Origin: a virus
IMG/VR virus record: IMGVR_UViG_3300048446_000614
Span: 1 to 21,316 of that record
Direction: 5' to 3' (one strand)
Length of the DNA stretch: 21,316 bases
The translations under genes and the position numbers were made by a program. Within the stretch, counting starts at the first letter, position 1; every line of letters begins with the position of its first letter. Positions 186 to 20,962 of this stretch are shown here, in pieces. Under the pieces are notes generated by a model. The model was not told the origin of the DNA and did no database searches. It worked only from the letters and a program-made list of their open reading frames with translations.

Positions 186-644
186 CTACTTTTCGGTTGG
201 TGGTTCAATGCTGATGTTTAATTTGACGTCAGCCTGTGACGCGCCATCGACTTCGCCGTCGCGGACGGTTTTGCTCATGCTGTCTAGCACGCTAGCGGCG
301 GTCTGATAATGCCCCTTGGCGTAGCTCCGATTAAACAGTCGCCAGCGTGCTGCTGTAAGACGAGAGACCATCTCCTCCCTATCATTCTGGAAATCCTCCG
401 CGTTCCACTTGTTGACGGCCTTCCAGTCTTTCCAGGCAGTAGCAAGAGAGACGCTCTCCCGGGAAGAGTGATCGTGCACTAACTGCCTGGGCGTTAAGCC
501 TTCCAGCTGCCGGATATAAAGTCTGTGCTGGCGTTGCGTAATAACCTCCTCGGGATTGCGCTTCCCATAAACCATTTTTCCCTCAGAATTGACAGGCCCC
601 TTAAAATCTGGCTTAGCATCTCCCCGCTCAAAACTGTCTGGCAT
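186..644 (-). CDS. hypothetical DNA-binding protein, weakly small-terminase-like, 152 aa
   Basis: The ATG is at 644. No family is firmly recognised. After a hydrophilic 30-residue N-terminus there is a helical stretch (EEVITQRQHRLYIRQLEG, then LTPRQLVHDHSSRESVSLATAWKDW) that could fold as a helix-turn-helix. It is followed by long helices and a Gly-broken segment (SYAKGHYQTAASVLDSMSK), a pattern common in phage small terminase subunits. The C-terminus is acidic. No large-terminase gene is seen in the window, so the guess stays weak; a generic regulator is the alternative. It converges on the terminator at 157-185. Confidence 0.45.
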   Translation of the reverse strand: MPDSFERGDAKPDFKGPVNSEGKMVYGKRNPEEVITQRQHRLYIRQLEGLTPRQLVHDHSSRESVSLATAWKDWKAVNKWNAEDFQNDREEMVSRLTAARWRLFNRSYAKGHYQTAASVLDSMSKTVRDGEVDGASQADVKLNISIEPPTEK

Positions 645-681
645 TACTAGCGTTCCAGGTAACTAATGCACCCAATCTAAC

Positions 682-737
682 GCTCGCTTCGCTCGCACAG
701 TAAAAAAGCTCCCCTTGTGAGGGAGCGAAGCGACCGA
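682..737. repeat. GCGAGCGAAGCGAGC palindrome and first copy of a 23-bp direct repeat
   Basis: Positions 682-696 read GCTCGCTTCGCTCGC, the reverse complement of GCGAGCGAAGCGAGC. Positions 715-737 are identical to 1761-1783 over 23 bp. Related short palindromes recur in the spacers at 1812-1827, 2142-2157 and 2305-2319. Confidence 0.7.
702..727 (-). terminator. rho-independent terminator for the 212-aa gene (- strand)
   Basis: Read on the - strand, GCTCCC, a 7-nt loop and GGGAGC are followed by six T. It lies just past the stop codon of the gene that begins at 1377. Confidence 0.85.
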
Positions 738-738
738 G

Positions 739-3207: not shown

Positions 3208-4047
3208 CTATGAATCGCTGATTAGGTCACGTTGGGCCTGAAGCTGGTCGAAGTGCTGTTCTGCACGCTCCAGGAATAAACCTTCTTGTTCGATTAGGTC
3301 TTCTTGATTGAGGAGGGTGGTTACTGGCTCACCGCTACGACGTGCCACCACAACAGCACCCCCGATTGCTTGGATGCCTGTCATGTGTTTAAGTATTAGG
3401 CTATAGGCCCCGGTCTGAGCTTTATAGGAAAACAGGGAATCTTCCATTGAGGAGTGGAGGGATTTACCGGTGGTTTTCCAGTCGATGATGTAGGGGCCTT
3501 TTCCGCCTAGGTCGGCGAGGAGGTCACACGCTCCAGCCATTCCTGCGGGGTGGTGGCCTGAAAATTCGACGCTATGAATGGCGGTTACGTGGTCCAGCAT
3601 CCAACCGCGTAGCCCGCGAGCATAACCTGAGCTTGCCCAAGGGACTCTTGGCGCTCCAGCGATAGCTTTTTCCATTGCCCATTGCGTGATCTTTGTTGGG
3701 CAGCGGTAGAGACCGTCCTCTCCTTTTTTCCAGAGCCCTTTTTTGTTGGCTGTGGCACGGGCCAGTCTCTGTCCCAACTTGAGACAGAATTCCATGTGAT
3801 TGTGCGCTCCAGTGCCTCTTTTTGCTGCTGCGTCTCGTGTCTCATGGGATCCTGGCCTGGCTAGCCAGTTTTCGAGTTTTTTCTGTTGTGCCAGGGGAGC
3901 TGTCGTCCCAAGGATTCTTGTAACGCTGTGAAATATCTCGCCGGTTAGTACGTCTTTGTATATCCTTCCGTCTGGGTCGCTTTGGTCATCTCTGACTAGC
4001 GATTTCTGTCTGAGTGCGGCTAACTTATCTTGCTTATCTAATGTCAT
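3208..4047 (-). CDS. PD-(D/E)XK family exonuclease, 279 aa
   Basis: A RecB/lambda-exonuclease-like nuclease for DNA-end processing in phage recombination or replication. The core motifs appear in order: RGTGAHNHME (77-86, motif I with the conserved His/Glu region), Glu161, Asp175 in AGACDLL, IIDWKT (187-192, the D-x-K catalytic pair Asp189/Lys191) and YKAQTGAY (208-215, the Q-x3-Y motif). All key residues are present and the length suits a phage exonuclease. The ATG at 4047 overlaps the stop of the 57-aa gene as ATGA, so the two are translationally coupled. The gene converges on the + strand lipoprotein gene. Four CGCTCCAG octamers lie on the non-coding strand of this gene. Confidence 0.85.
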   Translation of the reverse strand: MTLDKQDKLAALRQKSLVRDDQSDPDGRIYKDVLTGEIFHSVTRILGTTAPLAQQKKLENWLARPGSHETRDAAAKRGTGAHNHMEFCLKLGQRLARATANKKGLWKKGEDGLYRCPTKITQWAMEKAIAGAPRVPWASSGYARGLRGWMLDHVTAIHSVEFSGHHPAGMAGACDLLADLGGKGPYIIDWKTTGKSLHSSMEDSLFSYKAQTGAYSLILKHMTGIQAIGGAVVVARRSGEPVTTLLNQEDLIEQEGLFLERAEQHFDQLQAQRDLISDS

Positions 4048-4291: not shown

Positions 4292-4450
4292 CTATTTTTG
4301 TTTCTTGCGTTGAGCGTGGTAAAACGCTTTGGCAAGAGCAGTCAGCTGGTCAGGTTTGTCAGCTGCTTCTGCTTCACTGCGGGAGCGAGCAATGTTCGCG
4401 AGGGTTTCGCGTTCGGTCGCTCCACGTGAGTTGTCCTTAGCTCTAGGCAT
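4292..4450 (-). CDS. small basic protein, 52 aa
   Basis: The start chosen is ATG 4450 (MPRAKDNSRGATERE), which overlaps the end of the ssDNA-binding gene by 8 nt (ATGCCTAG). The protein is rich in Arg, Lys, Ala and Glu, with a predicted long helix and a Lys-rich end (AQRKKQK). No family is recognised. The tight overlap points to one operon with the ssDNA-binding protein and perhaps a role at DNA. Confidence 0.6.
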   Translation of the reverse strand: MPRAKDNSRGATERETLANIARSRSEAEAADKPDQLTALAKAFYHAQRKKQK

Positions 4451-5033
4451 TGGACTCGCCGAATGGATTGCCACCAACTAGGAGCTGGTTTAGGTCGTAA
4501 CCCTTGGCGTCTGCATCTTTCTTGGCTGCTTCGATCTTTTCTTCCATGCCTTTCTTGCGAGGGCCGGGAACGATGCGGTACTCGGTGTTGAGCTTCATGC
4601 CTGTGCGGGAGATTGTGAAGTCCCACGCTCCAAGGTCTGCATAGTCTTCCGACTGGCTAAGGGCATCGAGCTCTTTCATCAAGCCCTTTTGACCGATCTC
4701 AAGCACCTTGATGCTTTCGGTCTGGTAGTCGAAGACGAAGCAGCTGATTGCAAACTTTGGCTTTTCGAGTGCTGTGCCCTCGTAGTTCATCCGTTGCTCG
4801 AAGTCACCGAGTTCGGCTTGGATGTCAGATGGTGAAGGTTCTGCAGCAAAACGGAATGGCTTCTTTGAGCCTTCTGCGTTTTCACCCCACACTGTGTGGT
4901 ACTCCAGGGGCTCTTCACTGACGATTGCGAAGCGCATTGATTCGCCGTCGCCAAGCTTGCTGGCTGTCAGGTAGCCACCACCACTGCCGGTGCTGTTGAC
5001 TGCTTTGGATGCTGTTGCGGAAAGGAAACCCAT
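4443..5033 (-). CDS. probable phage single-stranded DNA-binding protein, 196 aa
   Basis: The call rests on overall layout and context more than on a diagnostic motif. A Gly/Ser-rich N-terminus (about 1-25) is followed by a beta-rich core with aromatic residues (LEYHTVWGE, KPFRFA, KFAISCFVFDYQ, LGAWDFTISR, NTEYRIVPG). A Lys/Asp-rich helix and a flexible tail (GGNPFGESNA) close it, as in phage OB-fold ssDNA-binding proteins. It lies beside the exonuclease and divergent to the primase-helicase. Other nucleic-acid-binding roles are possible. Upstream, a -35-like TTGACG and TGCTAGTTT on the - strand (about 5063-5092) may form its promoter, with somewhat long spacing. Confidence 0.55.
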   Translation of the reverse strand: MGFLSATASKAVNSTGSGGGYLTASKLGDGESMRFAIVSEEPLEYHTVWGENAEGSKKPFRFAAEPSPSDIQAELGDFEQRMNYEGTALEKPKFAISCFVFDYQTESIKVLEIGQKGLMKELDALSQSEDYADLGAWDFTISRTGMKLNTEYRIVPGPRKKGMEEKIEAAKKDADAKGYDLNQLLVGGNPFGESNA

Positions 5034-5168: not shown

Positions 5169-7481
5169 ATGAATTTGCAAGAGTTTTTGGCTGTATTGCC
5201 AAACGACTGGGTGTTGGCTCCCATCTACAAGAAGGGCGCTCCAATGAAATCGGGGAAGCTTGCCACTGGCAAGAATCCTTTTGAGCCTTCTTTTGAAAAG
5301 CCATTCAACAAGCACGATGCAAAACTCGCCTGTGAGAAGAACCCAACGCTTGGTGCTGTTGGCTTGTTCACTGGTGTTCGTGGAGGTGGCATCGTCATCC
5401 TCGACATCGATAAGAACTTGGGTGTCCTCCAACGAAAATTTGGTGCAACCCTTGACGGCGCTCCCGTGGTCACCTCCACCAGAGCCAATGCGGCTAAATA
5501 CATCTTCAGAGTCGATGAAACTTTGTGGGGGGAAGTAAGCGGTTGGGGCCACTCTGATGAGCATGCCGATGGGTACGAAGTACTTTGGGGGCCTCAGGGG
5601 CTTATTTATGGCGATTACCCAGGCTCTAGCGATGGCAAGTGGGGTATTGGCTCCTACAGCTTTGAAGGTGACCCTGATAACGTTCCAGCTGCACCGGATT
5701 GGTTGATTGCTGAGATGAAGGCGGCGAAGAAGCCGACCGGATTCCTCAAGAACAAGACGGCGCTTGACCTGAGTGATCGGACTGAAGATGAGATCGCTGA
5801 GATCATCAAGGACTGCACGACTGTTATCGAGAATCGTGGTTCTGGTCAGCGTGATCACTGGGTGAAGATTGGCATGGCCATTCACTCGGTGTTGCCCAAT
5901 GAGAAAGGGCTTGAGTTGTGGTCGGATTGGTCGCGTAAGGATGCTGAGTTTGCTGATGAGTGGGAGAAGGGCAATCCCTGTGAGCAGACCTGGAACTCGT
6001 TCAAGCCTGGTTCTGTTGGGCTGGGTTCACTGATTTGGCAGGCAGATAGGGCTGACCCCAAGCGGACTCGGTTTGATGAGAAGACGAAGAAGATTCTTGA
6101 GACTGCAGAGGCTGCGATTCAGCGCACCAGGGAAGTTGTTCTCACTTTTGATGAGGTGATTCGTCGTGGCATGGCGATTTATGAGGGTGACGATGTTGCT
6201 CGCATGAATTACGAGTTGCACGCTTTGGCGATGGAAGCTCGTTACAAAGATCAATCGGGTGTGGAGAAGCTGCTGCTTGACCACATGACTCAGAAGAACA
6301 AAGGACAGCGTCATTCGATGGCTGAGGCCACTGTTGAGCAGCGTGAATTTTTGATTCCTGGTCTGTTGCCTAGTCCTTACAGCGTTCTGTTTTTTGGTGA
6401 CGGTGGTAGTGGCAAGTCAGCTACAGCCATTGCGTTGATGAAGCACGTTGTGGATGGGATTCCTTTTTCGTTGAAGGAGCAGAGCGTTCCAGTGAAATCT
6501 GGTCCGGTGATTTATTTCAACGGAGACATGAGTGGGGCTGACTTCAAAAATGAGTACGACCTACACGAGATCAAAAATTCTCACCTGTTCCATTTCGAGC
6601 CTGATTTCAACCTCTACAGGCGGATGCAGTTTGTTCGGACGATGAATGAGGTCAAGCCGGTGATGATCTGCATTGACTCGCTCTCTAGCTGTTCTGGCGC
6701 TAAGGCTGGGGATGAGAACAAGGCTGAATTTGCTCAACCGATTTACTGGTTGAACAACAACAACGGCACTCTGTGGCCTGCCTGCACAATTGTGATTCTC
6801 CATCACCAGGCCAAGCATGGTGGCTATAGGGGCTCAACAGCCATCACGGCAGCTGTTAGTGAGGTGTGGAACATCACTGAGCCAAAGAAGGATTCAGGCC
6901 TCTCAGCGGACCAGCGAGTGATCACCATCGGCAAGAGCCGGATGAATCGCAAGGGTGAAACCTTGATTCAGAGTCAGCTGGACGATTTGACGATCCACGT
7001 AAAAGAGATTGCTCGATCGGAAGAGACTCAAACCAAAGCTGGTTCCATTGGTGAGCGAGTCATGAATCGGTTGATGACCTCCGAGACGTGGATGAGCCGT
7101 GCTGACCTCAACAGCGATCCTTTGGTTGGTGGTTCTGTTTCAGCAATCAAGAAAACGCTCCAGCGATTAGAGGCTCGTGGAGTTGTTGAGGTGAAAGAAG
7201 AGAAGGCTTCTCAAGGTTTACCTCTCAAGCTCTATAGGGTTCTTCTCGCGCACGCGCAGGGGGAGAGCCAAGAGGGGGGACAACCACCCCAAACCCCTAG
7301 TGAAAACAGGGCATCTGAAAGGGGACACGGAACAGTAAAAGAAGTGAAATCGGAAGACTGTCCCCTTTCAGAATCCAGCACTGGAGCGCCTTCTGATGCT
7401 GCTGATGATGTGTCCCTTTATTCCCGCGCGAGGAGTGAGGAGGAGCTGAACAGCACTTTGGATCAGAGCGTCTGGGATTGA
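5169..7481 (+). CDS. bifunctional primase-polymerase / RecA-fold helicase, 770 aa
   Basis: Synthesises primers and unwinds DNA at the phage fork. The N-terminal prim-pol domain (about 1-180) has the metal-binding pair Asp79 and Asp81 in VILDID, the strand VVTSTRANAAKYIFRV and the LWGPQGLIYGDYPGS segment. A PriCT-type linker domain follows at about 205-295 (RDHWVKIGMAIHS ... WEKGNPCEQTWNSF). The helicase core has Walker A GDGGSGKS (410-417), Walker B MICIDSL with Asp503, and the sensor-like HHQAKHGGYRGSTAI. A winged-helix-like part (about 635-690) precedes a roughly 80-residue Ser/Glu-rich disordered tail. The ATG at 5169 has only GGATTGTAACGC before it, so no strong Shine-Dalgarno. The gene is divergent to the ssDNA-binding gene. 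Confidence 0.9.
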   Translation: MNLQEFLAVLPNDWVLAPIYKKGAPMKSGKLATGKNPFEPSFEKPFNKHDAKLACEKNPTLGAVGLFTGVRGGGIVILDIDKNLGVLQRKFGATLDGAPVVTSTRANAAKYIFRVDETLWGEVSGWGHSDEHADGYEVLWGPQGLIYGDYPGSSDGKWGIGSYSFEGDPDNVPAAPDWLIAEMKAAKKPTGFLKNKTALDLSDRTEDEIAEIIKDCTTVIENRGSGQRDHWVKIGMAIHSVLPNEKGLELWSDWSRKDAEFADEWEKGNPCEQTWNSFKPGSVGLGSLIWQADRADPKRTRFDEKTKKILETAEAAIQRTREVVLTFDEVIRRGMAIYEGDDVARMNYELHALAMEARYKDQSGVEKLLLDHMTQKNKGQRHSMAEATVEQREFLIPGLLPSPYSVLFFGDGGSGKSATAIALMKHVVDGIPFSLKEQSVPVKSGPVIYFNGDMSGADFKNEYDLHEIKNSHLFHFEPDFNLYRRMQFVRTMNEVKPVMICIDSLSSCSGAKAGDENKAEFAQPIYWLNNNNGTLWPACTIVILHHQAKHGGYRGSTAITAAVSEVWNITEPKKDSGLSADQRVITIGKSRMNRKGETLIQSQLDDLTIHVKEIARSEETQTKAGSIGERVMNRLMTSETWMSRADLNSDPLVGGSVSAIKKTLQRLEARGVVEVKEEKASQGLPLKLYRVLLAHAQGESQEGGQPPQTPSENRASERGHGTVKEVKSEDCPLSESSTGAPSDAADDVSLYSRARSEEELNSTLDQSVWD
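7315..7371. repeat. perfect 13-bp inverted repeat inside the helicase tail
   Basis: CTGAAAGGGGACA (7315-7327) and TGTCCCCTTTCAG (7359-7371) are exact reverse complements, 31 nt apart. Near-copies of the half-site lie at about 7275-7281 (GGGGACA) and 7409-7417 (TGTCCCTTT). They fall in the part coding the disordered C-terminal tail, just upstream of the promoter at 7485. Confidence 0.8.
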
Positions 7482-7484
7482 GGG

Positions 7485-7514
7485 TTGACACGGTGCGGAA
7501 GGTGTGTTTATTAT
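7485..7514 (+). promoter_or_regulatory. strong sigma70-type promoter with operator-like repeats
   Basis: TTGACA (7485-7490), an 18-bp spacer and TATTAT (7509-7514) make the best classic promoter in the window. AAGGTGTG (7499-7506) lies in the spacer, and its reverse complement CACACCTT occurs twice downstream (7534-7541 and 7543-7550), as if a dimeric repressor or activator bound there. Confidence 0.75.
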
Positions 7515-7556
7515 CAGCCCATGCCACACAAGGCACACCTTTCACACCTTTCACCG

Positions 7557-8153: not shown

Positions 8154-8163
8154 ATTAATTAAC

Positions 8164-8181
8164 TGGGGCTTCTCAGCCCCA
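8164..8181 (+). promoter_or_regulatory. intercistronic hairpin without T-run
   Basis: TGGGGCT-TCTC-AGCCCCA forms a perfect 7-bp stem between two + genes, with no following T-run. Partial termination or protection of the upstream RNA end is likely. Confidence 0.55.
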
Positions 8182-8200
8182 AACACAATCTCCTCTCGAC

Positions 8201-9256: not shown

Positions 9257-9260
9257 GGAA

Positions 9261-11840: not shown

Positions 11841-11863
11841 ATCCAAGTAATCACCTACCGACC

Positions 11864-12124: not shown

Positions 12125-12341
12125 CCTAGTAAACTCTCCTCCCCACTACACGAGTGGTGGGTTGGAGTGCATCACAGCAATGGAAGCCTCGATGTCGCCT
12201 GAAGAATTTCAAGGCTACCTTCGCGGAAACATCTTCAAATATTGCTGGAGATTCCGAAATAAGAACGGTGTACAGGACTTGAAAAAAGCCCGGTGGTATA
12301 TCGACATGCTCATCAAACACTACAAACCACCCAATGACTGA
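12111..12341 (+). CDS. DUF3310 family protein, 76 aa
   Basis: The start chosen is ATG 12111 (MAADDLVNSPPHYTSGG) rather than the GTG at 12093. The sequence carries the DUF3310 hallmarks: V-N-S-P-P-H-Y near the start, G-L-E-C-I-T-A-M-E, E-E-F-Q-G-Y-L-R-G-N-I-F-K-Y, and D-L-K-K-A-R-W-Y-I-D-M-L-I at the end. The family is common in phages next to replication or nucleotide genes; its biochemical role is unsettled. It overlaps the 86-aa gene by 14 nt and the DNA polymerase by 8 nt (ATGACTGA), so the three are coupled. Confidence 0.88.
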   Translation: MAADDLVNSPPHYTSGGLECITAMEASMSPEEFQGYLRGNIFKYCWRFRNKNGVQDLKKARWYIDMLIKHYKPPND

Positions 12342-14151
12342 CTACACAACGTATTTAGGCTTCGAGCATATTGAGAAGCTCAACACCGCCACATCGATCT
12401 GTTTCGACTGCGAGACAACAGGACTCCAGCCAGAAGTTGGGGGGCTCAGGTTATTGCAGCTTGGGTCGACCGCGAGAAAGATCTTGGTTGTTGTCGACTT
12501 ATTTACAGCGACGGAAGCAAACCTTAAAGAGCTTGATCTATTCTTTTCGAACGGTACTAGGTACTGGACTGCCCATAACGCCGTCTTCGATTTGGGGTGG
12601 CTCCAGGTATATGGCTGGCATCCTCGCGGAGAAGTTCGCTGCACGATGCTCGCGTCGAAGATTCTGAACAACGGCAAGCCCAACCTGAAGCACGGGTTGG
12701 CACCTGTTGCAGAACGCTACCTGGGCATCAAGCTGGATAAGGAGGAGCAGCGTTCTGACTGGAGCGCTGAGTTGACTGACTCCCAGATCCGCTACGCCGC
12801 AAAGGATGTGGAGGTGTTGTGTGAACTGGACGCTCCAATGCACCAAGAGATTGCACAGGCTGGGCTCAGTGGTGCGTATGCGTTGGAATGCAGAGCCTTA
12901 CAAGGTATGGCCTCTATGCGTAACAACGGGCTACCTTTCGATAGGGAAGCGCTCCAGGGTATTGAGGTTGATTACGAAAAAGACATTGAGAACCTCGGTC
13001 GTGAGTTCCATTTGGAGCTTGACGACGCACTACCTCGGGAAGCGAAACTACCGCGCAACGAAGATGGAACTTTTAACCTTAGGGCTCGCGAATCTGGGTC
13101 TATCCGGCTTGGTACCAAACAATTCGCCGGCTTTAACATTGGAAGCCCTAAGCAGCTGCTGGAAAAAATGACGCTGGTGTTGGGGGAAACCCCAATCGAT
13201 GCCAAAACTGGGAAACCGAGTGCGTCTCGAACAGCATTGCGGGAGTACGCAGGAAATCACAGCGTTGTTGCTACTTATCTGCAGTGGAAGAAAGCTGAGA
13301 AGCGTAGGCAGATGGTGGCTGCACTCCTTAAGCATCAGTCGCCTGATGGGTTTGTGCGTGCCAGCTATTGGCAGCTTGGTGCGGAGACTGGCCGGATGAC
13401 GTGCAGTGACCCTAACTGCCAGCAAATTCCCAGAGATGCTCAGTTCAGGGAGTCAGTAGTCGCACCAGAAGGATGGGTGTTCGTTGGAGCGGACTTCTCA
13501 CAGATGGAGCTACGACTGCTTGCAATTGTTGCGAAGGACGAGAACATGTGTACTGCTTTTATTGATGGTAAAGACCTACACACAGTTACAGCTGAGGCAT
13601 TGGGGTGTGACAGACAAATCGCGAAAAGCGCCAACTTTGGTTTGGCGTATGGCAGCGGTGCAAAAGGGCTAAGAAACTATGCCGCTGGAATGGGGGTACA
13701 GATAACGCTTGAAGAGGCAACCATTGTGCGTACCCAGTGGTTGGACACTTACTACGGGGTAAGAGCTTGGCACCGCAGGTTGGCTAATGAGTCTGACAAG
13801 ACTGCTGGGATGATGCCTTCGATTCGCGTTCCAGTGAGCAACTTTCGTCGGTTCTTGCCTGGAGATATGAACCGCCTAACAATCCGAGCCAATTTCCCCG
13901 TGCAAGGGGCAGGTGCTGCAATTCTCAAGTGTGCAATTGGCTCACTCTGGAAACATCTCCAGGGCAGTGACGAAGCCAAGCTTTGCGCCTGCATCCATGA
14001 TGAAGTCTTGCTACTGGTAAGGAAAGGTAAGGAGGAGCAGTGGATGGAGACCTTAAAGGTCGCTATGGAATCCGCTGAAGCCAAGTGGTTAGGTGAAGTA
14101 CCCTCTGTTGCAGACGTAAAAACAGGCGATACTTGGGCAGCCTGTCACTGA
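12334..14151 (+). CDS. polA: family A DNA polymerase with 3'-5' exonuclease, 605 aa
   Basis: Replicative phage polymerase related to T7 and bacterial Pol I. The proofreading domain has Exo I FDCET (Asp25, Glu27), Exo II AHNAVFD (Asn82, Asp86) and Exo III YAAKD (Tyr154, Asp158), all intact. The polymerase domain has the GAETGRMTCSDPNCQQIP segment, motif A DFSQMELRLL (Asp387), motif B RQIAKSANFGLAYG (Arg427, Lys431) with Phe435 at the position of E. coli Phe762, and motif C CIHDEV (His555, Asp556). There is no 5' nuclease domain, as in T7. It starts inside the DUF3310 stop. Phe at the 762 position has been discussed as common in virulent phages, which is only suggestive here. Confidence 0.95.
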   Translation: MTDYTTYLGFEHIEKLNTATSICFDCETTGLQPEVGGLRLLQLGSTARKILVVVDLFTATEANLKELDLFFSNGTRYWTAHNAVFDLGWLQVYGWHPRGEVRCTMLASKILNNGKPNLKHGLAPVAERYLGIKLDKEEQRSDWSAELTDSQIRYAAKDVEVLCELDAPMHQEIAQAGLSGAYALECRALQGMASMRNNGLPFDREALQGIEVDYEKDIENLGREFHLELDDALPREAKLPRNEDGTFNLRARESGSIRLGTKQFAGFNIGSPKQLLEKMTLVLGETPIDAKTGKPSASRTALREYAGNHSVVATYLQWKKAEKRRQMVAALLKHQSPDGFVRASYWQLGAETGRMTCSDPNCQQIPRDAQFRESVVAPEGWVFVGADFSQMELRLLAIVAKDENMCTAFIDGKDLHTVTAEALGCDRQIAKSANFGLAYGSGAKGLRNYAAGMGVQITLEEATIVRTQWLDTYYGVRAWHRRLANESDKTAGMMPSIRVPVSNFRRFLPGDMNRLTIRANFPVQGAGAAILKCAIGSLWKHLQGSDEAKLCACIHDEVLLLVRKGKEEQWMETLKVAMESAEAKWLGEVPSVADVKTGDTWAACH

Positions 14152-14156
14152 TGAAG

Positions 14157-14162
14157 TATATT
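14157..14162 (+). promoter_or_regulatory. -10-like TATATT before the first HNH gene
   Basis: TATATT follows the polymerase stop by 5 nt and lies 23 nt before ATG 14186, but lacks the TG extension. Confidence 0.35.
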
Positions 14163-14185
14163 GGGTTTCATATTGAAGCCCGCGC

Positions 14186-14689
14186 ATGTCACGTTCCAAG
14201 CCTTTACCTCCTTTAGATGTTCTGAACGAGTGGTTTGCTCTGGACTCCAGTACAGGTGTACTGACCTGGAAAAAACGCTCAAACAGTCGCGTGCAAGTGG
14301 GTAAAACAGCAGGGTGGACTCAAAACCACAACGGGCTTCTAAGGGTATCGATTCAAGTTCCTAACTACGGTCGATTTCTACGAGCTCGTTTAGTTTGGAA
14401 AATGCACCACAAAACGGAGCCACCTGATGTAGTTGATCACATGGATAGGAACTCTATAAACGATGCTGTCGTCAATCTGCGCGATGGTACAAACGGACTA
14501 AACAACAGGAACAGAAAGGTTTCATCTCGTTCAGGGTTGATGGGTGCTTTTCCTTCCTCTAACAACGATGGGCGGTGGCAGAGCACCATCCAAAAAGATG
14601 GCAAAACCGTCTACATAGGTACTTATGGAACTGCACTAGAAGCTAATGCTGCGTACCTACAAGAGTTAGAAAAATTAACACAAACGTAG
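14186..14689 (+). CDS. HNH endonuclease with AP2-like DNA-binding domain, 167 aa
   Basis: The start is ATG 14186 (MSRSKPLPPLDVL). The middle holds an HNH nuclease core: L-V-W-K-M-H-H (about 69-75), V-D-H-M-D-R-N (83-89) and D-A-V-V-N-L-R (93-99). The C-terminal part (about 118-160) has the AP2/ERF-like strand pattern G-R-W-Q-S-T-I ... V-Y-I-G-T-Y-G-T ... E-A-N-A-A-Y. This pairing is typical of free-standing homing endonucleases in phages. It lies directly behind the DNA polymerase, a favourite location for such elements, and is followed by a second, different HNH gene. Confidence 0.85.
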   Translation: MSRSKPLPPLDVLNEWFALDSSTGVLTWKKRSNSRVQVGKTAGWTQNHNGLLRVSIQVPNYGRFLRARLVWKMHHKTEPPDVVDHMDRNSINDAVVNLRDGTNGLNNRNRKVSSRSGLMGAFPSSNNDGRWQSTIQKDGKTVYIGTYGTALEANAAYLQELEKLTQT

Positions 14690-14732
14690 GGTGGGCTAAA
14701 ATTCAGGTTGACCGTGTTTGCTCAGAGTTTCG

Positions 14733-15053
14733 GTGGACTCAGAAGCTCTGAGTAAGTTTTGGTTGAAAGTGGATAAGCGTGGTCCGACTCAAGACCACCT
14801 CGACTCACGGTGCTGGCAGTGGAAGGGAGCTCTTTCAGCTGACGGTTACGGTCGATTTTATTACAAAGGTAAGCATTGGAGGGCTCATCGGCTCTCTTTT
14901 CTATTGACAACGGGTACGGAACCTGCGGTTGTACTACACAAGTGCAACAACCCTGCCTGCGTAAGGCCCAGTCATTTGCAGGCGGGAGATAGTAAAGAGA
15001 ACTTGTTAGATATCCTGATTGACAGGATTTACCAAGAACGCGATGTAGCCTGA
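14733..15053 (+). CDS. HNH endonuclease, 106 aa
   Basis: The start chosen is GTG 14733 (read Met-DSEALSKFWLKVD); TTG 14718 is the alternative. The protein has the phage HNH pattern: C-W-Q-W-K-G-A-L near residue 30, G-Y-G-R-F-Y-Y, the first catalytic-region A-H-R-L-S, then V-V-L-H-K-C-N-N-P-A-C-V-R-P-S-H-L and a closing G-D-S-K-E-N-L. The Cys residues probably bind a structural zinc. It is short and has no separate DNA-binding domain. It follows the HNH-AP2 gene after a short spacer with a TAAAAT (14697-14702) that could be a -10. Probably a selfish or homing nuclease; a packaging role is less likely away from terminase genes. Confidence 0.8.
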   Translation: MDSEALSKFWLKVDKRGPTQDHLDSRCWQWKGALSADGYGRFYYKGKHWRAHRLSFLLTTGTEPAVVLHKCNNPACVRPSHLQAGDSKENLLDILIDRIYQERDVA

Positions 15054-15157
15054 ACTGTTGGTTGGTGTAGCGTCAAGTGGTTGTAGCCTTTTCGGTCTGT
15101 AGGACTGGTAATGTCTGGCGTTTAAAGATGAAAGACTGTGCTACAGAGGGAACTTTT

Positions 15158-15191
15158 GGTACGCTAGGCGCAGCTATGCGCTCGGCGTACC
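15158..15191. repeat. 34-nt nested hairpin before the 71-aa gene
   Basis: GGTACGC (15158-15164) pairs with GCGTACC (15185-15191), and inside, GCGCA pairs with TGCGC around a GCTA loop, with small symmetric bulges TAG/TCG. There is no T-run. It ends nine bases before ATG 15201. TGGTACGCT in its left arm also fits the extended -10 pattern. Confidence 0.6.
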
Positions 15192-15200
15192 TACTTGCTG

Positions 15201-15416
15201 ATGGACACCAGAACAGGACGTGCAATAGCTATAGCGGACCTGCTTGAGACCTGCAAAACAGCCTGGGTTTCGGATATATTCAGGGCTATTAAGTTCCTAG
15301 AGCAAGCCGAAGAGGTAAGGACAGGTTGTAGGAAGCAACGTACCAGATCACGTACCAGGCAAAACAACGGTGCAAAGAAAAGGGCTGCCAAGTTAGACCA
15401 GCCACTCAATTGGTAG
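15201..15416 (+). CDS. hypothetical basic protein, 71 aa
   Basis: The start chosen is ATG 15201 (MDTRTGRAIAIADLLE) rather than TTG 15195. The first 45 residues are helical (AIAIADLLETCKTAWVSDIFRAIKFLEQAEEV); the C-terminal third is very basic (CRKQRTRSRTRQNNGAKKRAAKLD) and probably binds nucleic acid. No family is recognised. It lies behind a nested hairpin that may act as leader structure, operator or terminator. A second, overlapping 39-codon frame begins at 15128 but is less convincing. Confidence 0.5.
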   Translation: MDTRTGRAIAIADLLETCKTAWVSDIFRAIKFLEQAEEVRTGCRKQRTRSRTRQNNGAKKRAAKLDQPLNW

Positions 15417-15418
15417 TG

Positions 15419-15424
15419 TAATAT
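15419..15424 (+). promoter_or_regulatory. -10-like TAATAT before the TTG-start gene
   Basis: TAATAT follows the preceding stop by two bases and lies 22 nt before TTG 15447, the same distance as for other small genes here. Confidence 0.4.
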
Positions 15425-15446
15425 AGGTGTACTTGCTCTAATGTAA

Positions 15447-15707
15447 TTGGCCACCCGTCATGGCAGCAAAGTCTACCTGCAGCTACTGCTTGATCCCAAT
15501 AGGGCAAAGTTGCTGCAGGATTTGGCGGGAGAGCAGAACAAACGTACTACCGCAGTGATGCGTGACATCTTGTATTCGTACCTGGAGCGGACACTTCCTT
15601 CGTCTGTTTATGGGGAGGCTGCGGCTAAGGACCATGCGGTGTGGCGGGAGTCGGTTAGCAACAGGGTGAAGGGGCGCTCCAAGAAAAAGAAGGAGGATGA
15701 AGGATAG
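15447..15707 (+). CDS. hypothetical ribbon-helix-helix-like protein with TTG start, 86 aa
   Basis: A TAA lies directly before TTG 15447, so translation must begin at this TTG or later; the N-terminal residues (ATRHGSKVYLQLLLDPN) look like a complete strand, so TTG is the best start. The layout is a strand, then helices (RAKLLQDLAGEQNKRTTAVMRD, ILYSYLERTLP), as in small ribbon-helix-helix proteins, followed by an extension with a Lys-rich end (KGRSKKKKEDEG). An ATG at 15460 is in another frame and gives only a short, poor product. A regulator function is plausible. The stop lies three bases before the next promoter. Confidence 0.55.
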   Translation: MATRHGSKVYLQLLLDPNRAKLLQDLAGEQNKRTTAVMRDILYSYLERTLPSSVYGEAAAKDHAVWRESVSNRVKGRSKKKKEDEG

Positions 15708-15709
15708 GG

Positions 15710-15718
15710 TGCTATTGT
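15710..15718 (+). promoter_or_regulatory. extended -10 promoter TGCTATTGT of the sigma-endolysin operon
   Basis: TGCTATTGT lies 25 nt before ATG 15744, three bases after the preceding stop. The leader contains TTATCTACC. It is likely to drive the 69-aa gene, the sigma factor and the endolysin. Confidence 0.55.
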
Positions 15719-15743
15719 ATTGAGGTTGTTATCTACCTCATTC

Positions 15744-15953
15744 ATGACACGCTACGCATTGGCTCGCTCCACCGCTGATGGGTTGCAGTATCTAGCTGCT
15801 GCCTACGGGAACACAGGTGATGGGGTTGTGTACACACAGATGCGTACTGACGCTGGTTTGTATGTAACTATTGAGAAAGCTATAGATGTGTGTCGAACGC
15901 TCCAGCGGAATAGTTATTCTGATCTTTTTGTTGTTCCTGTGGAGGGGGTTTGA
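15744..15953 (+). CDS. hypothetical protein upstream of the sigma factor, 69 aa
   Basis: The start is ATG 15744 (MTRYALARSTADGLQYL), supported by the promoter and leader 25 nt upstream. The chain is a helix (STADGLQYLAAAYG), a strand region (GVVYTQMRTDAGLYVTIE), a helix (KAIDVCRTLQRNSY) and a final strand (LFVVPVEGV). No family is recognised. Its TGA shares a base with the sigma factor's ATG (TGATG), so the two are translationally coupled. It could be a sigma partner, but only position says so. Confidence 0.6.
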   Translation: MTRYALARSTADGLQYLAAAYGNTGDGVVYTQMRTDAGLYVTIEKAIDVCRTLQRNSYSDLFVVPVEGV

Positions 15954-16807
15954 TGGTTGATACTACTGCGGACTATTTGGCAGAGATTGGGCGTTACCCT
16001 CTCTTGACGAAGAGCCAGGAGATTATGCTGGCGCGCCAGGTTGCTGTCTGGGTTGCGAATGACAATCTGACTGCAAAGCAGTTGAGGATGGGGAGGAGAG
16101 CGTACGAGAAATTGATGAACTGCAACCTCAGGTTGGTGGTGTCGATTGCTAAGAAGTTTCGGAATCGGGTGGGGAAGGCGGAGATGCTGGACCTGATTCA
16201 GGAGGGGAACATCGGGTTGTCGCACGGGATTAAGAAGTTTGATCCTGAGCGGGGGTATGCGTTGTCGACGTATGTGTATTGGTGGATTCGGCAGGGGATT
16301 ACTCGGTATCTCAGTTGTAATGACAGGATCATTCGGTTGCCGTCCCACGCTGGGGAGATGTTGGCGAAGCTTAGGGCCTGGACTCCTAAGTTCTTTTTGA
16401 TTCATGGGAGGGCACCAACGCTGGTGGAGTCAGCAGAGTTCTGTGAGATTTCGGTGGAGAAGATGTCTCTCTACTTGGATAATGCGTATGACGCTGGGAG
16501 TTTGGATAAGCCTGTTAGTAATACCGATGGGGAGACCACGCTGTTGAGTTTGGTCTCTGTTAATGAGGACTTGTTGGCAAAAGTTGAGAATACTATTCGT
16601 TTGGAGGCTATGGATAGTCTGCTGGAACGTTTAAAACCTGATGAAAGAGAGCTTGTGATGCGGTACTACGGGATGTATGGGGAGAGTCCAGTAACGCTGC
16701 TGACTTTGGCGAAAGAGGTTGGGCTTTCAAGAGAAAGGGTTAGACAAAAAATCTCTAACAGTCTGAGGAGACTTAAAGTGTTGGCTATACAGCATCCCAT
16801 TCTCTGA
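15953..16807 (+). CDS. sigma70-family RNA polymerase sigma factor (RpoD/group 2 type), 284 aa
   Basis: Redirects host RNA polymerase. The start is ATG 15953 (MVDTTADYLAEIG), overlapping the previous stop. Region 1.2 is D-Y-L-A-E-I-G-R-Y-P-L-L-T (7-19); region 2 holds NLRLVVSIAKKF (58-69), DLIQEGNIGL (80-89) and YVYWWIRQGITR (107-118) with the Trp110/Trp111 pair for -10 melting. Region 3.0 keeps His132 and Glu135, equal in spacing to E. coli His455/Glu458, which read the extended -10. Region 4.2 is a helix-turn-helix (LAKEVGLSRERVRQKISNSL, about 252-271). There is no long region 1.1. It resembles cyanobacterial primary/group 2 factors, not T4 gp55 of cyanomyoviruses, so capture from a host is likely. 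It is coupled to the endolysin behind it. Confidence 0.92.
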   Translation: MVDTTADYLAEIGRYPLLTKSQEIMLARQVAVWVANDNLTAKQLRMGRRAYEKLMNCNLRLVVSIAKKFRNRVGKAEMLDLIQEGNIGLSHGIKKFDPERGYALSTYVYWWIRQGITRYLSCNDRIIRLPSHAGEMLAKLRAWTPKFFLIHGRAPTLVESAEFCEISVEKMSLYLDNAYDAGSLDKPVSNTDGETTLLSLVSVNEDLLAKVENTIRLEAMDSLLERLKPDERELVMRYYGMYGESPVTLLTLAKEVGLSRERVRQKISNSLRRLKVLAIQHPIL

Positions 16808-17418
16808 TGGCTCGACTAACGCTCGAAGGTTTTACGAACTTTTGGACTTACTACCAGGGTGAGACGCACCAGATGGATGCGGTGGGTGAGTTGTGGCGGA
16901 GGATGCCTGTGGATTTGTTGGAGGAGGATACGGATTGGGTCGTTAAATTTAGGAGCGGTCCTGAGCCTGCACCCGAACCCATCAGTGTCATCAACCAAGC
17001 AGGTATTGACCTGATTAAAAGGTGGGAAGGGCTACGGCTTGAAGCGTATTATTGCAGCGCTGGTGTGGTCACAATTGGCTATGGTTCGACTGGCGACCAT
17101 GTCTATGCAGGCATGACTATCACTGAGCAGGAAGCTGAGAGGTTGTTGCGGCTTGATTTAGCAAGATTTGAAGACTCAATCAGTAAGAGTGTCCACGTCC
17201 TGTTGACGGACAACGAATATGGTGCGCTCTGTAGCTGGGCGTTCAATGTCGGATGTGGAGCAGCAGAAAGCTCGACACTGGTACGTCGTCTTAATGCAGG
17301 AGAGCCTAAAGAGCGGGTGTTCAGCGAGGAACTGCCCCGCTGGGCTAAGGCGAACGGTCAAACGCTCCAGGGATTGCTTAACCGCCGCAACGCAGAGATT
17401 GAGCTAGCCCTCAGCTAG
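16807..17418 (+). CDS. GH24 endolysin (T4/P22-type lysozyme) with N-terminal extension, 203 aa
   Basis: Cleaves peptidoglycan at lysis. The catalytic domain (about 60-203) has WEGLRLEAYYCSAGVVTIGYGS with Glu74, Cys83 and Thr89 in the E-8-(D/C)-5-T spacing of T4 lysozyme; Cys replaces the usual Asp, a known variant. ALCSWAFNVG (about 139-148) and the NRRNAEIELAL end also fit GH24. The first 55 residues (LEGFTNFWTYYQGETHQ ... ELWRRMP ... DWVVKFRS) form an extra Trp-rich helical domain joined by a Pro/Glu linker (SGPEPAPEPIS), perhaps for wall binding. There is no signal peptide or signal anchor, so a holin elsewhere is needed. The ATG shares a base with the sigma factor's TGA. Confidence 0.92.
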   Translation: MARLTLEGFTNFWTYYQGETHQMDAVGELWRRMPVDLLEEDTDWVVKFRSGPEPAPEPISVINQAGIDLIKRWEGLRLEAYYCSAGVVTIGYGSTGDHVYAGMTITEQEAERLLRLDLARFEDSISKSVHVLLTDNEYGALCSWAFNVGCGAAESSTLVRRLNAGEPKERVFSEELPRWAKANGQTLQGLLNRRNAEIELALS

Positions 17419-17517
17419 ACCTGCTACGCTGTTCGTTCAACCAATTCCCTGAGGAGTTGGCTTGTCCCTGATGTAGCTGTGGGAGCTGCATGAAAACAGC
17501 CCTTTGGTGCGTGAACC

Positions 17518-17539
17518 ATTGGGCACTCCCCAATCTTTT
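17518..17539 (+). terminator. probable rho-independent terminator after the endolysin
   Basis: ATTGGG-CACTC-CCCAAT followed by CTTTT forms a 6-bp stem with a short T-run. It lies at the junction of the + strand lysis operon and the convergent - strand tail operon. Confidence 0.6.
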
Positions 17540-17958
17540 CAGATGGCAAAGACTGCTGCTGTTGCGGTGCGGGCTGCTGTCCGTAGGTCAAAAGTTACGG
17601 GATCGCCAGCCCATATGCGGTAAGCATTGACAGGCATGATTTCGTACAAGCCAATGCCGGCAGGGAATGAAGCTGCTTTCCAGTTGACGTGCCAGCCATC
17701 TTTAGCTGTGGCGGGGGTGATAGTTTCACCTGTCTCTTCGTCGTAGACACCATCGTCGTTGTAGATGATGCCGATGTCTGAGATGGAGTGGTCGTGTGTG
17801 GAATAGCTCCAGTTGTCGACCGTTTCGACTTCTTCGGTTTCGTTGCCGTCTTCATCCAAGACAGGCTGCTCTACTTGCGTGAGGATGCCTGTGGTTGTGG
17901 CGTAGGTGCGCCATTCGGCTTCATCGGTGAAGCGCAGGAAGAGATTGATCTTTTTCAT
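17539..17958 (-). CDS. hypothetical tail-associated protein, 139 aa
   Basis: The start chosen is ATG 17958 (MKKINLFLRFTDEAEW). A GTG at 17967 overlaps the upstream stop as GTGA and would add three residues, so it is a fair alternative. The protein begins with a strand-helix unit, has a very acidic middle (LDEDGNETEEVETVDN, DDGVYDEETGE) and ends in a beta-rich domain (GWHVNWKAASFPAGI, MPVNAYRIWAGDPVTF). Similar small proteins lie behind fibre genes in many phages and are sometimes fibre-assembly chaperones; here that is inference from position. It is the last gene of the - strand tail operon and faces the endolysin terminator. Confidence 0.55.
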   Translation of the reverse strand: MKKINLFLRFTDEAEWRTYATTTGILTQVEQPVLDEDGNETEEVETVDNWSYSTHDHSISDIGIIYNDDGVYDEETGETITPATAKDGWHVNWKAASFPAGIGLYEIMPVNAYRIWAGDPVTFDLRTAARTATAAVFAI

Positions 17959-17963
17959 GGTGC

Positions 17964-19139
17964 TCACGAAGTTAGGGCTTGCAGTTGCTCATCACTAAGC
18001 CTGCGGGGGTAGTAGGCAATTCGGGAGATGCGTTGCACTCCTGAATCTGCGGGATGAGTCCTACCGATCCACATATGGCTTAGGTCATCTTGTAACGGTT
18101 TACTTAATGGAGCCGGGGGTGTCCCGAGTTTGCCTTGCCAAGCTGCTGATACTCCCTCTGCTGAATATGCACCCGCATAATTTTGCATAGGTACTGTTGA
18201 AGTCCAGCCAGCGGTATAGTACATAAGAAGAATTTGAGAGCGGTCTTCGTACCTTAGGTTAAAACTTGCTCCGCCAGTCTCACCATTAGAAGAGAATCCG
18301 TAAGTTGTATCTTGATAAACATTGGGGCCTGTGCTGACAGAGCTTAGTAGCAATCTACCTCGCGAACTTACAGTCCCAATAAATGTCCCTGCACTTTGGT
18401 TGAACCAGCTACTGAAGTTATCTCCTGTGATGCTGCAACGATCAGCGGCTCTAGTTGCTGTTGCGCCTGCCGTCGCGATGTAGCTGGTGGGGAAACCTTT
18501 AGCTTCATCGCCGTCTTCTACTTGTGCACCCCAGATTAAAATATCAATGTTTTGATCACTTACATCTCCTCTGGCTCCTACACTCCAGTCGTTAGTGGTT
18601 CCTGTAAACCGTTGCCATGTACTTGTTACAACTGGGTTGCCAAAACCAGCCGCAAATACAGTCTGATCTGCCCCAGTGTTTGACTTCATCCATAACGAAA
18701 CTACTCTTTTAGCGGAGCCGTCTCTATTGCTTGTTAGATAACATTCATCTAAGTTAGTCGTACCGCCACCTAATGCACATTCCATTCGGGTTGCGGTGTT
18801 TGTACCATCAGGAGCAGTGCCTGCGTTGGGTGTACAAGTAGGTCCAGCTGGAGCTGTTCCATTATCAACAAAGTTCCAATCACCAGCATTGAAATCAATA
18901 CTGTTTTCGACGTAATTCACCCTACTCTCTTCAATCAACAACCCAAGGCTTTCACCTGTCGCTGGGTCATGATCAAACCGTGGCTCGTCATTAGCAGCAG
19001 TGCGAACGATTCCACGTGCGTCAACATACGTTCCCGTGCTGGCGCGAGTGTATGTAATCCTTGGGTCAAGTAAACGTTCGGCTGCAAAGTTCAGGTCAAG
19101 TGTCGGCTTTGTAGCAGGAAAAAGGTGTTTGATAGTCAT
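17964..19139 (-). CDS. phage tail protein with lectin-like (LamG/ConA-type) fold, 391 aa
   Basis: The start chosen is ATG 19139 (MTIKHLFPATKPTLD), five bases after the stop of the 605-aa fibre gene; the 30 codons upstream overlap that gene and are rejected. The N-terminal block L-D-L-N-F-A, then ITYTRASTGTYVDARG, PRFDHDPATGESLGLLIEE and SRVNYVENS, is a well-known module of phage tail/structural proteins that precedes a jelly-roll carbohydrate-binding domain. The rest is Thr/Ser/Gly-rich beta sequence with two lectin-like halves, ending in HPADSGVQRISRIAYYPRRLSDEQLQALTS, a LamG-type closing motif. A role in binding the host surface is likely. Confidence 0.8.
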   Translation of the reverse strand: MTIKHLFPATKPTLDLNFAAERLLDPRITYTRASTGTYVDARGIVRTAANDEPRFDHDPATGESLGLLIEESRVNYVENSIDFNAGDWNFVDNGTAPAGPTCTPNAGTAPDGTNTATRMECALGGGTTNLDECYLTSNRDGSAKRVVSLWMKSNTGADQTVFAAGFGNPVVTSTWQRFTGTTNDWSVGARGDVSDQNIDILIWGAQVEDGDEAKGFPTSYIATAGATATRAADRCSITGDNFSSWFNQSAGTFIGTVSSRGRLLLSSVSTGPNVYQDTTYGFSSNGETGGASFNLRYEDRSQILLMYYTAGWTSTVPMQNYAGAYSAEGVSAAWQGKLGTPPAPLSKPLQDDLSHMWIGRTHPADSGVQRISRIAYYPRRLSDEQLQALTS

Positions 19140-19144
19140 AGCAA

Positions 19145-20962
19145 TCAGGCTCCGAATACTGTCCAGTTTGTGCCGTTGTACCAGACGAGGTACTGAGCAG
19201 TACCTCCGCCAGTAACGGTTGCGCCCCACGTAAGTGCAGCTGCACCGTCTGTTACGCGGGTGATGTCCCCTACTCGTGCTGTCGGCGATGTGGGAAGTAA
19301 GGCCACCGTTGTGCCGTCTTGTATCGCTATAGCGTCCTTGTAGGCAAGCGTTCCAAGGAAACCGTTCAGTGGAACCTCGTTCGCCCTAGTGCCGATGTCG
19401 TGCTTGGTGACAACCTCCATGGGGCTGAGGTTGTACTCAGTCAGCTTGGTTAATCCTGAGCCGTCACAGATGATGTCTTGATCGCCATCGGTGACCGCAT
19501 TGATGATGTCGCCGTTGATTGTGACGTCACCTGCAAACTCCCCGTTTCCGTTGGCAGTTACTGTAAAAGTTGGATTCGAATCACCTGTTTTATATCCTCG
19601 GTAAAGGGCTTTCGTTCCTGCTGATGCAGAGGCTTGGTAGTAAAGGCTTGGATTCATTTGCAAGCCGTCTGCTATTCCCCCATTTGGATTACCTTTGATC
19701 TGCAGTTCACCATCATTTCTAATATATATATTTGCTACTGAATCACCTGTTACCCACCATTCAGATCTTGTACCAGAAGTTCCTGAAGAGATAAAGTTGC
19801 CTTTACTAAACAATCGCGTGCCAGCATTAGCGCCACTGCTGGGATCAGCCCCAGTTGGAGAAGAAACCCAAACCGATTCAGCTTGTAAGATTCCGCCAGG
19901 TTTTAATACAATGTTTTCGGTGCCGTCTGCTGCGGTGACTGCAACTGTGTCGCCACCATTGGATGGGGTTAGCTTTGTGCCATTTCGTTGCCATTGACCT
20001 GGCACTGTAGGTGGGCTGACTGGTTCCCAACTCGTGCCGTTCCAGACAAGCAGTAGTTCTAGGTCAGTGTCGAAGTAAAGGTCACCGATTTCTGGGGAGG
20101 TAGGTCTGTCACCCGTGTCACCGCTAGGCGTTCCACCGGCATCGAGCGTTGCTTTGTCCGCTGCGGTCATTAGACCCGCGAGCGCATCTGTTGCAGCGGG
20201 GATTGTGACATCCGTTCCAGTAGAACTGGTGATGTCTAATGTTTCAATGCCACGGTTATCAATGCCGAGGTCTGTTTGAACATCTACTCCGCCTGTCGGA
20301 ATGTAGCTCCATGCCGTTGGGCTTTTGACAACAAGATCACCAGGACTAACTGTTGTTGCACCAAGTCCGGTGGCGATTTGCCACGCTGCGGTCATCGCAC
20401 CAGGGCCGATGTTGACGAAGGCGTCGCCTGCGCTTCCTGCTGATGGGACTGGGTCGCTGGTTAAATCAACTGTGCCTTTATAAGACAGCGTGTCGATGTC
20501 AGCTTGCAGCTTGCCGTCAGCATCAAAACTGATGTTCGCTCCAGGGTTGATGACAAGTTGATCAGCTTCAAAGTCAAGACCTTTGTTGCGGTTGATGTCA
20601 ACGTTGAGAGTGACGGTGCTGCCAATAACTGTGACATCGATACCGTCATCACCAAGGATTTGGGTAATCCCTGACCCGCCTCCTCCGCCTCCACCTGCTA
20701 TCTCTCTCCAGATGGTGCCGTCCCAGACGTATAGCGTTTCAGTTGCAGTGTTGTACCACCACGTTCCAATGACAGCATCAGCTGGGACGTCTGGATTAAA
20801 TTTGATTCCGCCTAGTTGCTGAATGTTTCCTGCTGTGTCTTTGCAGCACAGGAACGGACCGGCTTCGTTGTAGTTAAGGCTGAGTTCACCGTTAGCTAGT
20901 TGAGCGCCGGTGGGGCGTCTGTCCTCGACAGTGCTGTTCTTCAGTATTAGCTGGACAGCCAT
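19145..20962 (-). CDS. tail fibre protein, 605 aa
   Basis: The start is ATG 20962 (MAVQLILKNSTVEDRRPTGA). The N-terminal block (LANGELSLNYNEAGPFLCCKD) is typical of cyanophage and other phage fibre proteins and probably joins the tail. A hinge of seven Gly follows (about 91-97). The shaft is Gly/Thr/Asp-rich, with ALAGLMTAADKATLD and repeated W-N-G-T-x-W units: LYVWDGTIWREI near 80, LLVWNGTSWEPV near 306 and VWYNGTNWTVFGA at the very C-terminus. There is no chaperone or peptidase motif. It is the likely adhesin or shaft of a side fibre. It lies after the collar gene and five bases before the lectin-like gene. Confidence 0.85.
   Translation of the reverse strand: MAVQLILKNSTVEDRRPTGAQLANGELSLNYNEAGPFLCCKDTAGNIQQLGGIKFNPDVPADAVIGTWWYNTATETLYVWDGTIWREIAGGGGGGGSGITQILGDDGIDVTVIGSTVTLNVDINRNKGLDFEADQLVINPGANISFDADGKLQADIDTLSYKGTVDLTSDPVPSAGSAGDAFVNIGPGAMTAAWQIATGLGATTVSPGDLVVKSPTAWSYIPTGGVDVQTDLGIDNRGIETLDITSSTGTDVTIPAATDALAGLMTAADKATLDAGGTPSGDTGDRPTSPEIGDLYFDTDLELLLVWNGTSWEPVSPPTVPGQWQRNGTKLTPSNGGDTVAVTAADGTENIVLKPGGILQAESVWVSSPTGADPSSGANAGTRLFSKGNFISSGTSGTRSEWWVTGDSVANIYIRNDGELQIKGNPNGGIADGLQMNPSLYYQASASAGTKALYRGYKTGDSNPTFTVTANGNGEFAGDVTINGDIINAVTDGDQDIICDGSGLTKLTEYNLSPMEVVTKHDIGTRANEVPLNGFLGTLAYKDAIAIQDGTTVALLPTSPTARVGDITRVTDGAAALTWGATVTGGGTAQYLVWYNGTNWTVFGA

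Follow-up and report, generated by a model that had tools for sequence, protein, structure and literature searches.

A polar CGYNCCA word whose strand bias steps at a primase-helicase gene in uncultured phages, a probable primase start signal

Primase start signals are usually about three bases long and leave little trace in a genome. Lagging-strand start sites of this kind include GTC for T7 gp4 and CTG for E. coli DnaG. In NrSPol, the helix bundle reads the template sites 5'-TTTGGTTA-3' and 5'-GTG(A/G)-3' (PMC8718748). Human PrimPol starts well at 3'-GTC-5' (that is, 5'-CTG-3'), a sequence that also fits the 3'-GYY-5' preference of HSV UL52 (PMC10345425). In the NrS-1 genome (AB746912), TTTGGTTA occurs only once; this copy lies 147 bp beyond the stop of the primase gene and is oriented like the + strand words described below. 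No polar dispersed word was found in NrS-1, and with its single TTTGGTTA it was set aside as a positive control for such words. A literature search on the word described here, or on genome-wide primase words in phages, yielded nothing relevant.

The window analysed is a whole viral record of 21,316 bases. By direct count it contains CGCTCCAG 15 times on the + strand and 4 times on the - strand, CGTTCCAG 10 and 2 times, and the looser CGYTCCA 44 and 9 times (positions 401 to 20762). These are exactly the counts, and for CGCTCCAG the positions, reported in the initial annotation of this DNA, which also correctly gave the HIP1 word as missing. An order-3 Markov model predicts 5.6 CGYTCCA on the + strand and 4.7 on the - strand. 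Shuffled windows (500 runs, synonymous codons permuted in genes and spacers permuted) give 5.8 and 4.5. The largest difference between strands among the 500 shuffles is 10, against 35 in the real window, so codon use alone is insufficient, as had been proposed, and the shuffle that the initial annotation had set against its own claim does not reproduce the bias. Its CGYTCCA consensus is a real word, if slightly too narrow: the fourth base is free and the word is therefore CGYNCCA, usually with G next, CGYNCCA(G).

401 to 20768, + strand: CGYNCCA words scattered along the window (76, or one every ~280 bp)

In this form the word occurs 76 times on the + strand and 29 times on the - strand, compared with 18:17 in synonymous-codon shuffles, and is the most over-represented of all 3+gap+3 patterns in both the window and its relatives. 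Single-base variants at C1, G2, C5, C6 or A7 are at background level. The bias is present, as first noted, in + genes (35:21), - genes (29:4) and spacers (12:4). Read from the opposite strand the word is 5'-TGGNRCG-3', usually CTGGNRCG.

The bias had been described as running throughout. It is indeed genome-wide, but uneven, with a ratio of 35:3 left of position ~7280 and 41:26 to the right. The likelihood change point lies at ~7268, 213 bp before the stop of a primase gene (permutation p 0.016; window, unbiased fit).

7156 to 7388, no strand: polarity step; the last + word before it is at 7156 and the first - word after it at 7381
7381 to 20768, - strand: - words right of the step (TGGNRCG on the + strand), 26 of the 29 - words, with only 3 to the left

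The same step is found in relatives. Across 16 representative contigs, the 8 kb left of the primase end hold 393 + and 29 - words and the right side 248 and 189; in 51 further contigs the ratios around the primase end are 769:59 and 408:356, and the step is reproduced in L093 and L095-L097. CGCNCCA ranks first among 24,343 gapped words for left-side asymmetry (238:10) and also for the change across the primase end (right side 133:115). Unbiased change points cluster 120 to 240 bp before the primase stop, with free fits falling elsewhere than the primase end in some of the long contigs. The word is polar, and its polarity changes at one place only, the 3' end of the primase gene, with no flip elsewhere on the map; the initial annotation had called for a test of where the bias switches. 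GC skew gave no consistent pointer to fork direction: the mean GC3 skew differs in sign between the window's clade and the main clade, with no consistent change at the step, and does not confirm the direction.

The gene that ends at the step is common to the word-bearing contigs.

5169 to 7481, + strand: 770-aa fusion of an AEP/PrimPol primase with a helicase, proposed to read the word
5169 to 5798, + strand: AEP catalytic domain, with motif I ILDID (D79/D81), E137 and K110
5808 to 6044, + strand: helix bundle of PriCT_2 type (aa 214-292); in the pRN1 and NrS-1 enzymes this domain reads the template
6321 to 6821, + strand: RecA-fold helicase domain (aa 385-551), like RSF1010 RepA and DnaB
7245 to 7481, + strand: C-terminal tail (aa 693-770), low confidence, probably disordered

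D79/D81 and E137 are invariant, and an invariant K110 apparently stands where motif II usually has His. The PriCT_2 domain (PF08707) scores 56.5 bits against a cut-off of 22 bits and is also present in all five relatives tested. When an AlphaFold model of residues 1-321 (pLDDT 84) was compared by Foldseek, the top PDB match was NrS-1 PrimPol (6a9w, E 1.7e-4), followed by the pRN1 primase; AsfvPrimPol was also among the top matches, all with modest TM-scores of 0.32-0.50. By its predicted catalytic fold, the primase belongs to the AEP/PrimPol superfamily.

A set of inverted repeats lies within the sequence coding the C-terminal tail of the primase.

7314 to 7327, + strand: TCTGAAAGGGGACA, putative origin box, forming the left arm of a 14-nt inverted repeat without mismatch
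7359 to 7372, - strand: TGTCCCCTTTCAGA, right arm of the same repeat
7410 to 7419, - strand: GTGTCCCTTT, a further box in the series

The 14-nt repeat (7314-7372), with its GGGGACA/TGTCCCC boxes, adjoins the change point of the window. In most relatives inverted GGACA/TGTCC boxes are concentrated between -200 and +100 of the primase stop, with a density at the step of up to 1.7 per 100 bp and strand; flanking bins mostly stay below 0.2. We infer that the GGGGACA/TGTCCCC boxes form the origin.

More than 100 uncultured phage contigs with a relative of this primase-helicase show CGYNCCA, at GC contents from 0.33 to 0.63; the word-bearing marine phages form a large, uncultured group. Roughly 330 contigs in all carry the primase. 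In contigs recruited by the primase only, CGYNCCA is the top or near-top word on the strand of the primase gene; the comparison with related phages called for at the outset finds the word present and, apart from one clade, strand-biased in primase-bearing relatives. Words on the + strand are kept at 430 of 607 aligned sites (71%) versus 236 of 643 (37%) for seven control patterns, which shows that they are maintained by selection. Some clades also accept CGANCCA, some favour CGTNCCAGG, and one is without polarity: in this L094 clade the primase is kept and the word is in 2-4-fold excess, but polarity is gone. S-2L, S-EIV1, S-CBS4, S-H1 and S-CBS3 show little or no excess of the word, and the cyanophages S-2L, S-H1, S-CBS3 and S-CBS4 are without this primase. 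In KBS-S-2A the excess is mild, up to twofold.

Almost every long contig with the word has three further genes in addition to the primase.

3208 to 4047, - strand: PD-(D/E)XK exonuclease gene, shared replication module
4443 to 5033, - strand: SSB-like gene, shared replication module
15447 to 15707, + strand: 86-aa protein, weakly matching ribbon-helix-helix, carried by nearly all long relatives

Because these genes travel along, co-occurrence alone cannot single out the primase. The DNA polymerase and sigma factor of the window are ruled out as the cause of the word, since word-bearing relatives without them exist; no family A DNA polymerase is found on the near-complete circular map of the main clade. 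A search with the exonuclease as query gave no matches. Possibly, the 86-aa ribbon-helix-helix-like protein binds the origin boxes.

Of the functions suggested in the initial annotation, a primase or replication-fork site is favoured by the data, because the polarity steps at the end of the AEP primase-helicase gene, on an inverted GGACA/TGTCC array, in dozens of contigs. CGYNCCA probably marks where the replicative primase encoded by the phage itself, which we infer to be the reader of the word, starts on the template. The template would be read as 5'-CTGGNRCG-3', the complement of CGYNCCAG. Replication would begin at the inverted GGGGACA/TGTCCCC box array at the 3' end of the primase gene, and the AEP/PrimPol-helicase (5169-7481) would travel along the lagging-strand template, starting a primer where its PriCT_2 helix bundle meets CTGGNRCG; selection would retain copies of the word all along that strand. 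As to the presumed fork directions, a left-moving fork, with words on the - strand (CGYNCCA on the +), would copy the whole ~40-kb circular map, and a right-moving fork, with words on the + strand, would mostly cover only ~8-10 kb in the main clade. If the word is a primase signal, a second, left-moving passage is needed to account for the + words to the right of the step. Counting against such a role are the L094 clade, which has the primase yet no polarity, and NrS-1 and S-2L, which have their own PrimPols and no comparable dispersed polar word. The mild excess in KBS-S-2A and the free change-point fits that fall off the primase end in some long contigs also count against it.

The main rival is a Chi-like recombination word, with CTGGNRCG checking a RecBCD/AddAB-type enzyme coded by host or phage. 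Chi words, too, are found on the leading strand and switch strands at the origin, the same geometry as that of a primase signal; the PD-(D/E)XK exonuclease gene accompanies the word, and CTGGNRCG has CTGG in common with E. coli Chi (GCTGGTGG). The strand asymmetry of E. coli Chi is roughly 3:1, however, far below the 24:1 of CGCNCCA on the left side, and the word occurs at ~1 per 280 bp. It is also stable over GC contents of 0.33-0.63, and thus probably over many hosts, and other cyanophages mostly lack it, all of which makes a Chi-like role unlikely. That the word is instead a site for another fork protein of the module, for example in loading or in DNA ordering, seems quite unlikely: the SSB-like, exonuclease and 86-aa genes do occur together with the primase in almost every long contig that has the word, but SSBs as a rule lack sequence specificity, ribbon-helix-helix proteins usually bind palindromic double-stranded operators, which the GGACA/TGTCC boxes fit better, and only the primase is of a class known to read template words.

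A packaging or segregation guide (KOPS-like) read by a terminase or translocase would also be polar, frequent and genome-wide. This option, raised in the initial annotation, is highly improbable, since the step is found at the end of the primase gene rather than at the terminase, which in G008 occupies 31869-33176, ~29 kb away; polarity is not organised around the terminase and does not flip elsewhere on the map. The coding strand alternates along the genome, which could suggest that the word arises as a side effect of codon use or of mutation bias between strands, or is a modification word. The probability of this is virtually nil: codon shuffles give 18:17 against the 76:29 observed, single-base neighbours are at background, retention exceeds that of the controls, and the bias is present in genes of both strands. 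The host-modification word proposed earlier fits poorly with a word that is polar, not a palindrome, and linked to the putative origin.

The chances appear even that an uncultured phage family keeps a genome-wide grid of 6-7-base primer starts for a PrimPol-helicase, from which Okazaki starts, origin and fork reach can be read in the sequence, and that this enzyme may double as the replicase in the main clade. A word of more than the usual length, which selection maintains and which goes with a single primase family, would then allow origins to be located from sequence in many uncultured phage genomes, together with the directions and the reach of their forks. The enzyme would be a new sequence-specific primer-making enzyme, and the clades with CGANCCA, CGTNCCAGG or loss of polarity would be natural variants for studying template reading by the helix bundle.

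The system resembles NrS-1 PrimPol, in which an AEP fold and helix bundle are likewise fused to a helicase, the template core is TGG, and the primase stop is close by (step and boxes at -200 to +100 here, site at +147 in NrS-1). It differs in that the NrS-1 genome has one site where ~100 words are found here, and in that the NrSPol helicase is of a different type; no sequence match was found. The pRN1 ORF904 primase also combines an AEP catalytic domain with a template-reading helix bundle, but it reads the three-base motif GTG, belongs to an archaeal plasmid and carries a superfamily 3 helicase. T7 gp4 and DnaG share a start signal on the lagging template and a primase tied to a RecA-fold helicase; their signals are of three bases and their primases of TOPRIM type, whereas the word here has 6-7 bases and is kept by selection. 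Like the bacterial Chi and KOPS words, CGYNCCA is polar and changes its strand pattern at the putative origin, but those words are host-coded, serve recombination or segregation and are less dense, and Chi is less polar than the word described here.

The word is real, strongly conserved and polar, and it is linked to a single site where the primase gene ends. The initial annotation described CGYTCCA as strand-biased, and all of its counts were exact on recounting, with 44 copies on the + strand and 9 on the - strand. Markov models up to order 3 predict ~5 per strand and synonymous-codon shuffles give 5.8 and 4.5, so that neither of the proposed refuting tests reproduces the observed numbers. 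Position 4 is unconstrained, the base after the word is mostly G, and substitutions at the other fixed positions reduce counts to background. The fuller word, CGYNCCA, occurs 76 and 29 times on the two strands (18.2 and 16.9 in synonymous-codon shuffles). When every 3+gap+3 pattern in the window is ranked, CGCNCCA leads (42 versus 5.4 expected), ahead of ACGNNCCA and CGTNCCA. To assess selection, aligned sites were compared between relatives with 70-88% DNA identity: 430 of 607 + words remain intact, as do 139 of 241 - words (TGGNRCG on the + strand) and 236 of 643 matches to seven control patterns of similar composition; the pairs overlap and the samples are thus not independent.

The window is the complete record of an uncultured virus (21,316 bases, classed linear). 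Its DNA-replication arm encodes a PD-(D/E)XK exonuclease, an SSB-like protein, the primase-helicase, a family A DNA polymerase, HNH endonucleases, a sigma factor and a lysozyme, and then tail proteins. The features of interest are:

5169-7481 (+), AEP/PrimPol primase-helicase
7314-7419, perfect 14-nt inverted repeat TCTGAAAGGGGACA / TGTCCCCTTTCAGA and a third box, at the polarity step and primase 3' end
14186-14689 and 14718-15053, a pair of HNH endonuclease genes, possibly of the homing kind, immediately after the polymerase gene
15950-16807, phage sigma factor whose nearest counterparts (39%) are in the Synechococcus phages S-CBS3 and KBS-S-2A

The similarity of the sigma factor points to cyanobacterial hosts. 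Cyanophages make up most of the nearest isolates when this protein, or the terminase and portal of the relative G008, is used for comparison. Isolates related to the primase are remote only (S-EIV1, S-CBS4 and ZP6), and remote primase relatives also occur in cyanobacterial plasmids.

In 26 contigs aligned on the primase start, + words are dense on either side of the primase. There are almost no - words between -7 and +2 kb; their density jumps to 3.7/kb directly after the gene and then declines over ~10 kb. At finer scale, the polarity changes within the final ~200 bp of the primase gene. Of 24,343 gapped words scanned without bias, CGCNCCA had both the strongest left-side asymmetry (238:10) and the largest shift in asymmetry at the primase end (133:115 on the right). 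Combined with CGTNCCA, it gives 393:29 on the left and 248:189 on the right. Unconstrained fits, free to fall anywhere, place the change point in the window at -213 relative to the primase stop (p 0.016), and in relatives at -123 (L093), -239 (L095), -9 (L097) and, in many others, ~-160, although not every long contig has its free change point at the primase end. The step is repeated in genome contigs left out of pattern discovery, and 51 additional contigs show it too, with 769:59 to the left and 408:356 to the right. The contigs are related and some overlap, so these counts are not independent trials; GC across the clades ranges over 0.33-0.63. The terminal repeat of G008 (88/89 bases) and the ends of contigs from its relatives, which fall at differing points of one common gene order, indicate a circular or circularly permuted map of ~40 kb. 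Throughout this map + words prevail, with - words concentrated right of the primase.

The boxes at the step are inverted GGGGACA/TGTCCCC in the window. Similar boxes occur in most relatives and other sequences in a few clades. Across 62 contigs, GGACA/TGTCC boxes are most frequent between -200 and +100 relative to the primase stop codon, with few in the surroundings. The exact cluster is absent from a few contigs (L107, L163 and G018); G019 and L163 carry other inverted repeats, TGTCACATTGG and TGTCGCATTG. In the window the boxes fall where the primase gene encodes a low-confidence tail that is probably disordered.

The same word lies on the primase-gene strand in contigs found via the polymerase and, independently, via the primase. 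The module common to relatives comprises the exonuclease, the SSB-like protein, the primase and a protein of 86 aa. Neither polymerase nor sigma factor was accepted as the cause of the word, because the polymerase is present in only 7 of 20 longer relatives, and a family A polymerase in none of the four genomes tested from the main clade, that with ~40-kb maps (G008, G005, G016 and G011). In these four, PrimPol may itself be the replicase, by analogy with NrS-1 and S-2L. Some clades depart from the pattern. In the L094 clade (L094, L169-L174 and L212; GC 0.57-0.61) the primase is present (43% identical), the word exceeds expectation two- to fourfold on each strand, and polarity is lost. In low-GC members the third base may also be A, and the preferred form in the G018 clade is CGTNCCAGG.

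The best-supported explanation we can infer is that the word is a primase start signal and the place of the step an origin. With CTGGNRCG as the recognised template, left-moving forks would use the + words and right-moving forks the - words, and the distribution seen would fit an origin at the boxes, its left fork running far and its right fork less so. If CGYNCCAG were the recognised strand instead, forks would converge on the boxes, which would then be a terminus. The parallel with NrS-1 and the CTG start favour the CTGGNRCG template, and with it the boxes as a probable origin, although sequence alone is no proof. GC skew does not help to assign fork direction, since the signs of third-position skew differ between clades. 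The window's clade (the window, G001/G002 and L004) has positive + strand values whichever strand carries the genes; in the main clade the average is negative.

The primase belongs to sequence families PriCT_2 and AAA_25. Its N-terminal model best matches NrS-1 PrimPol (NrSPol), then AsfvPrimPol and the pRN1 primase, with modest TM-scores, and the helicase part of the full model matches DnaB and RSF1010 RepA. Among 24 aligned relatives, an invariant lysine (K110) seems to occupy the position of the AEP motif II histidine. NrSPol uses the template sites 5'-TTTGGTTA-3' and 5'-GTG-3', starting just 5' of the site, with its helix bundle as reader (PMC8718748). For human PrimPol, 3'-GTC-5' (template 5'-CTG-3') is a good priming site, and HSV UL52 prefers 3'-GYY-5' (PMC10345425). 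S-2L and NrS-1, which have other PrimPols, show no such word as that found here. The NrS-1 genome (L098) contains a single TTTGGTTA, at 17198 on the - strand, 147 bp beyond the stop codon of the primase gene, and its orientation is the same as that of the + words described here.
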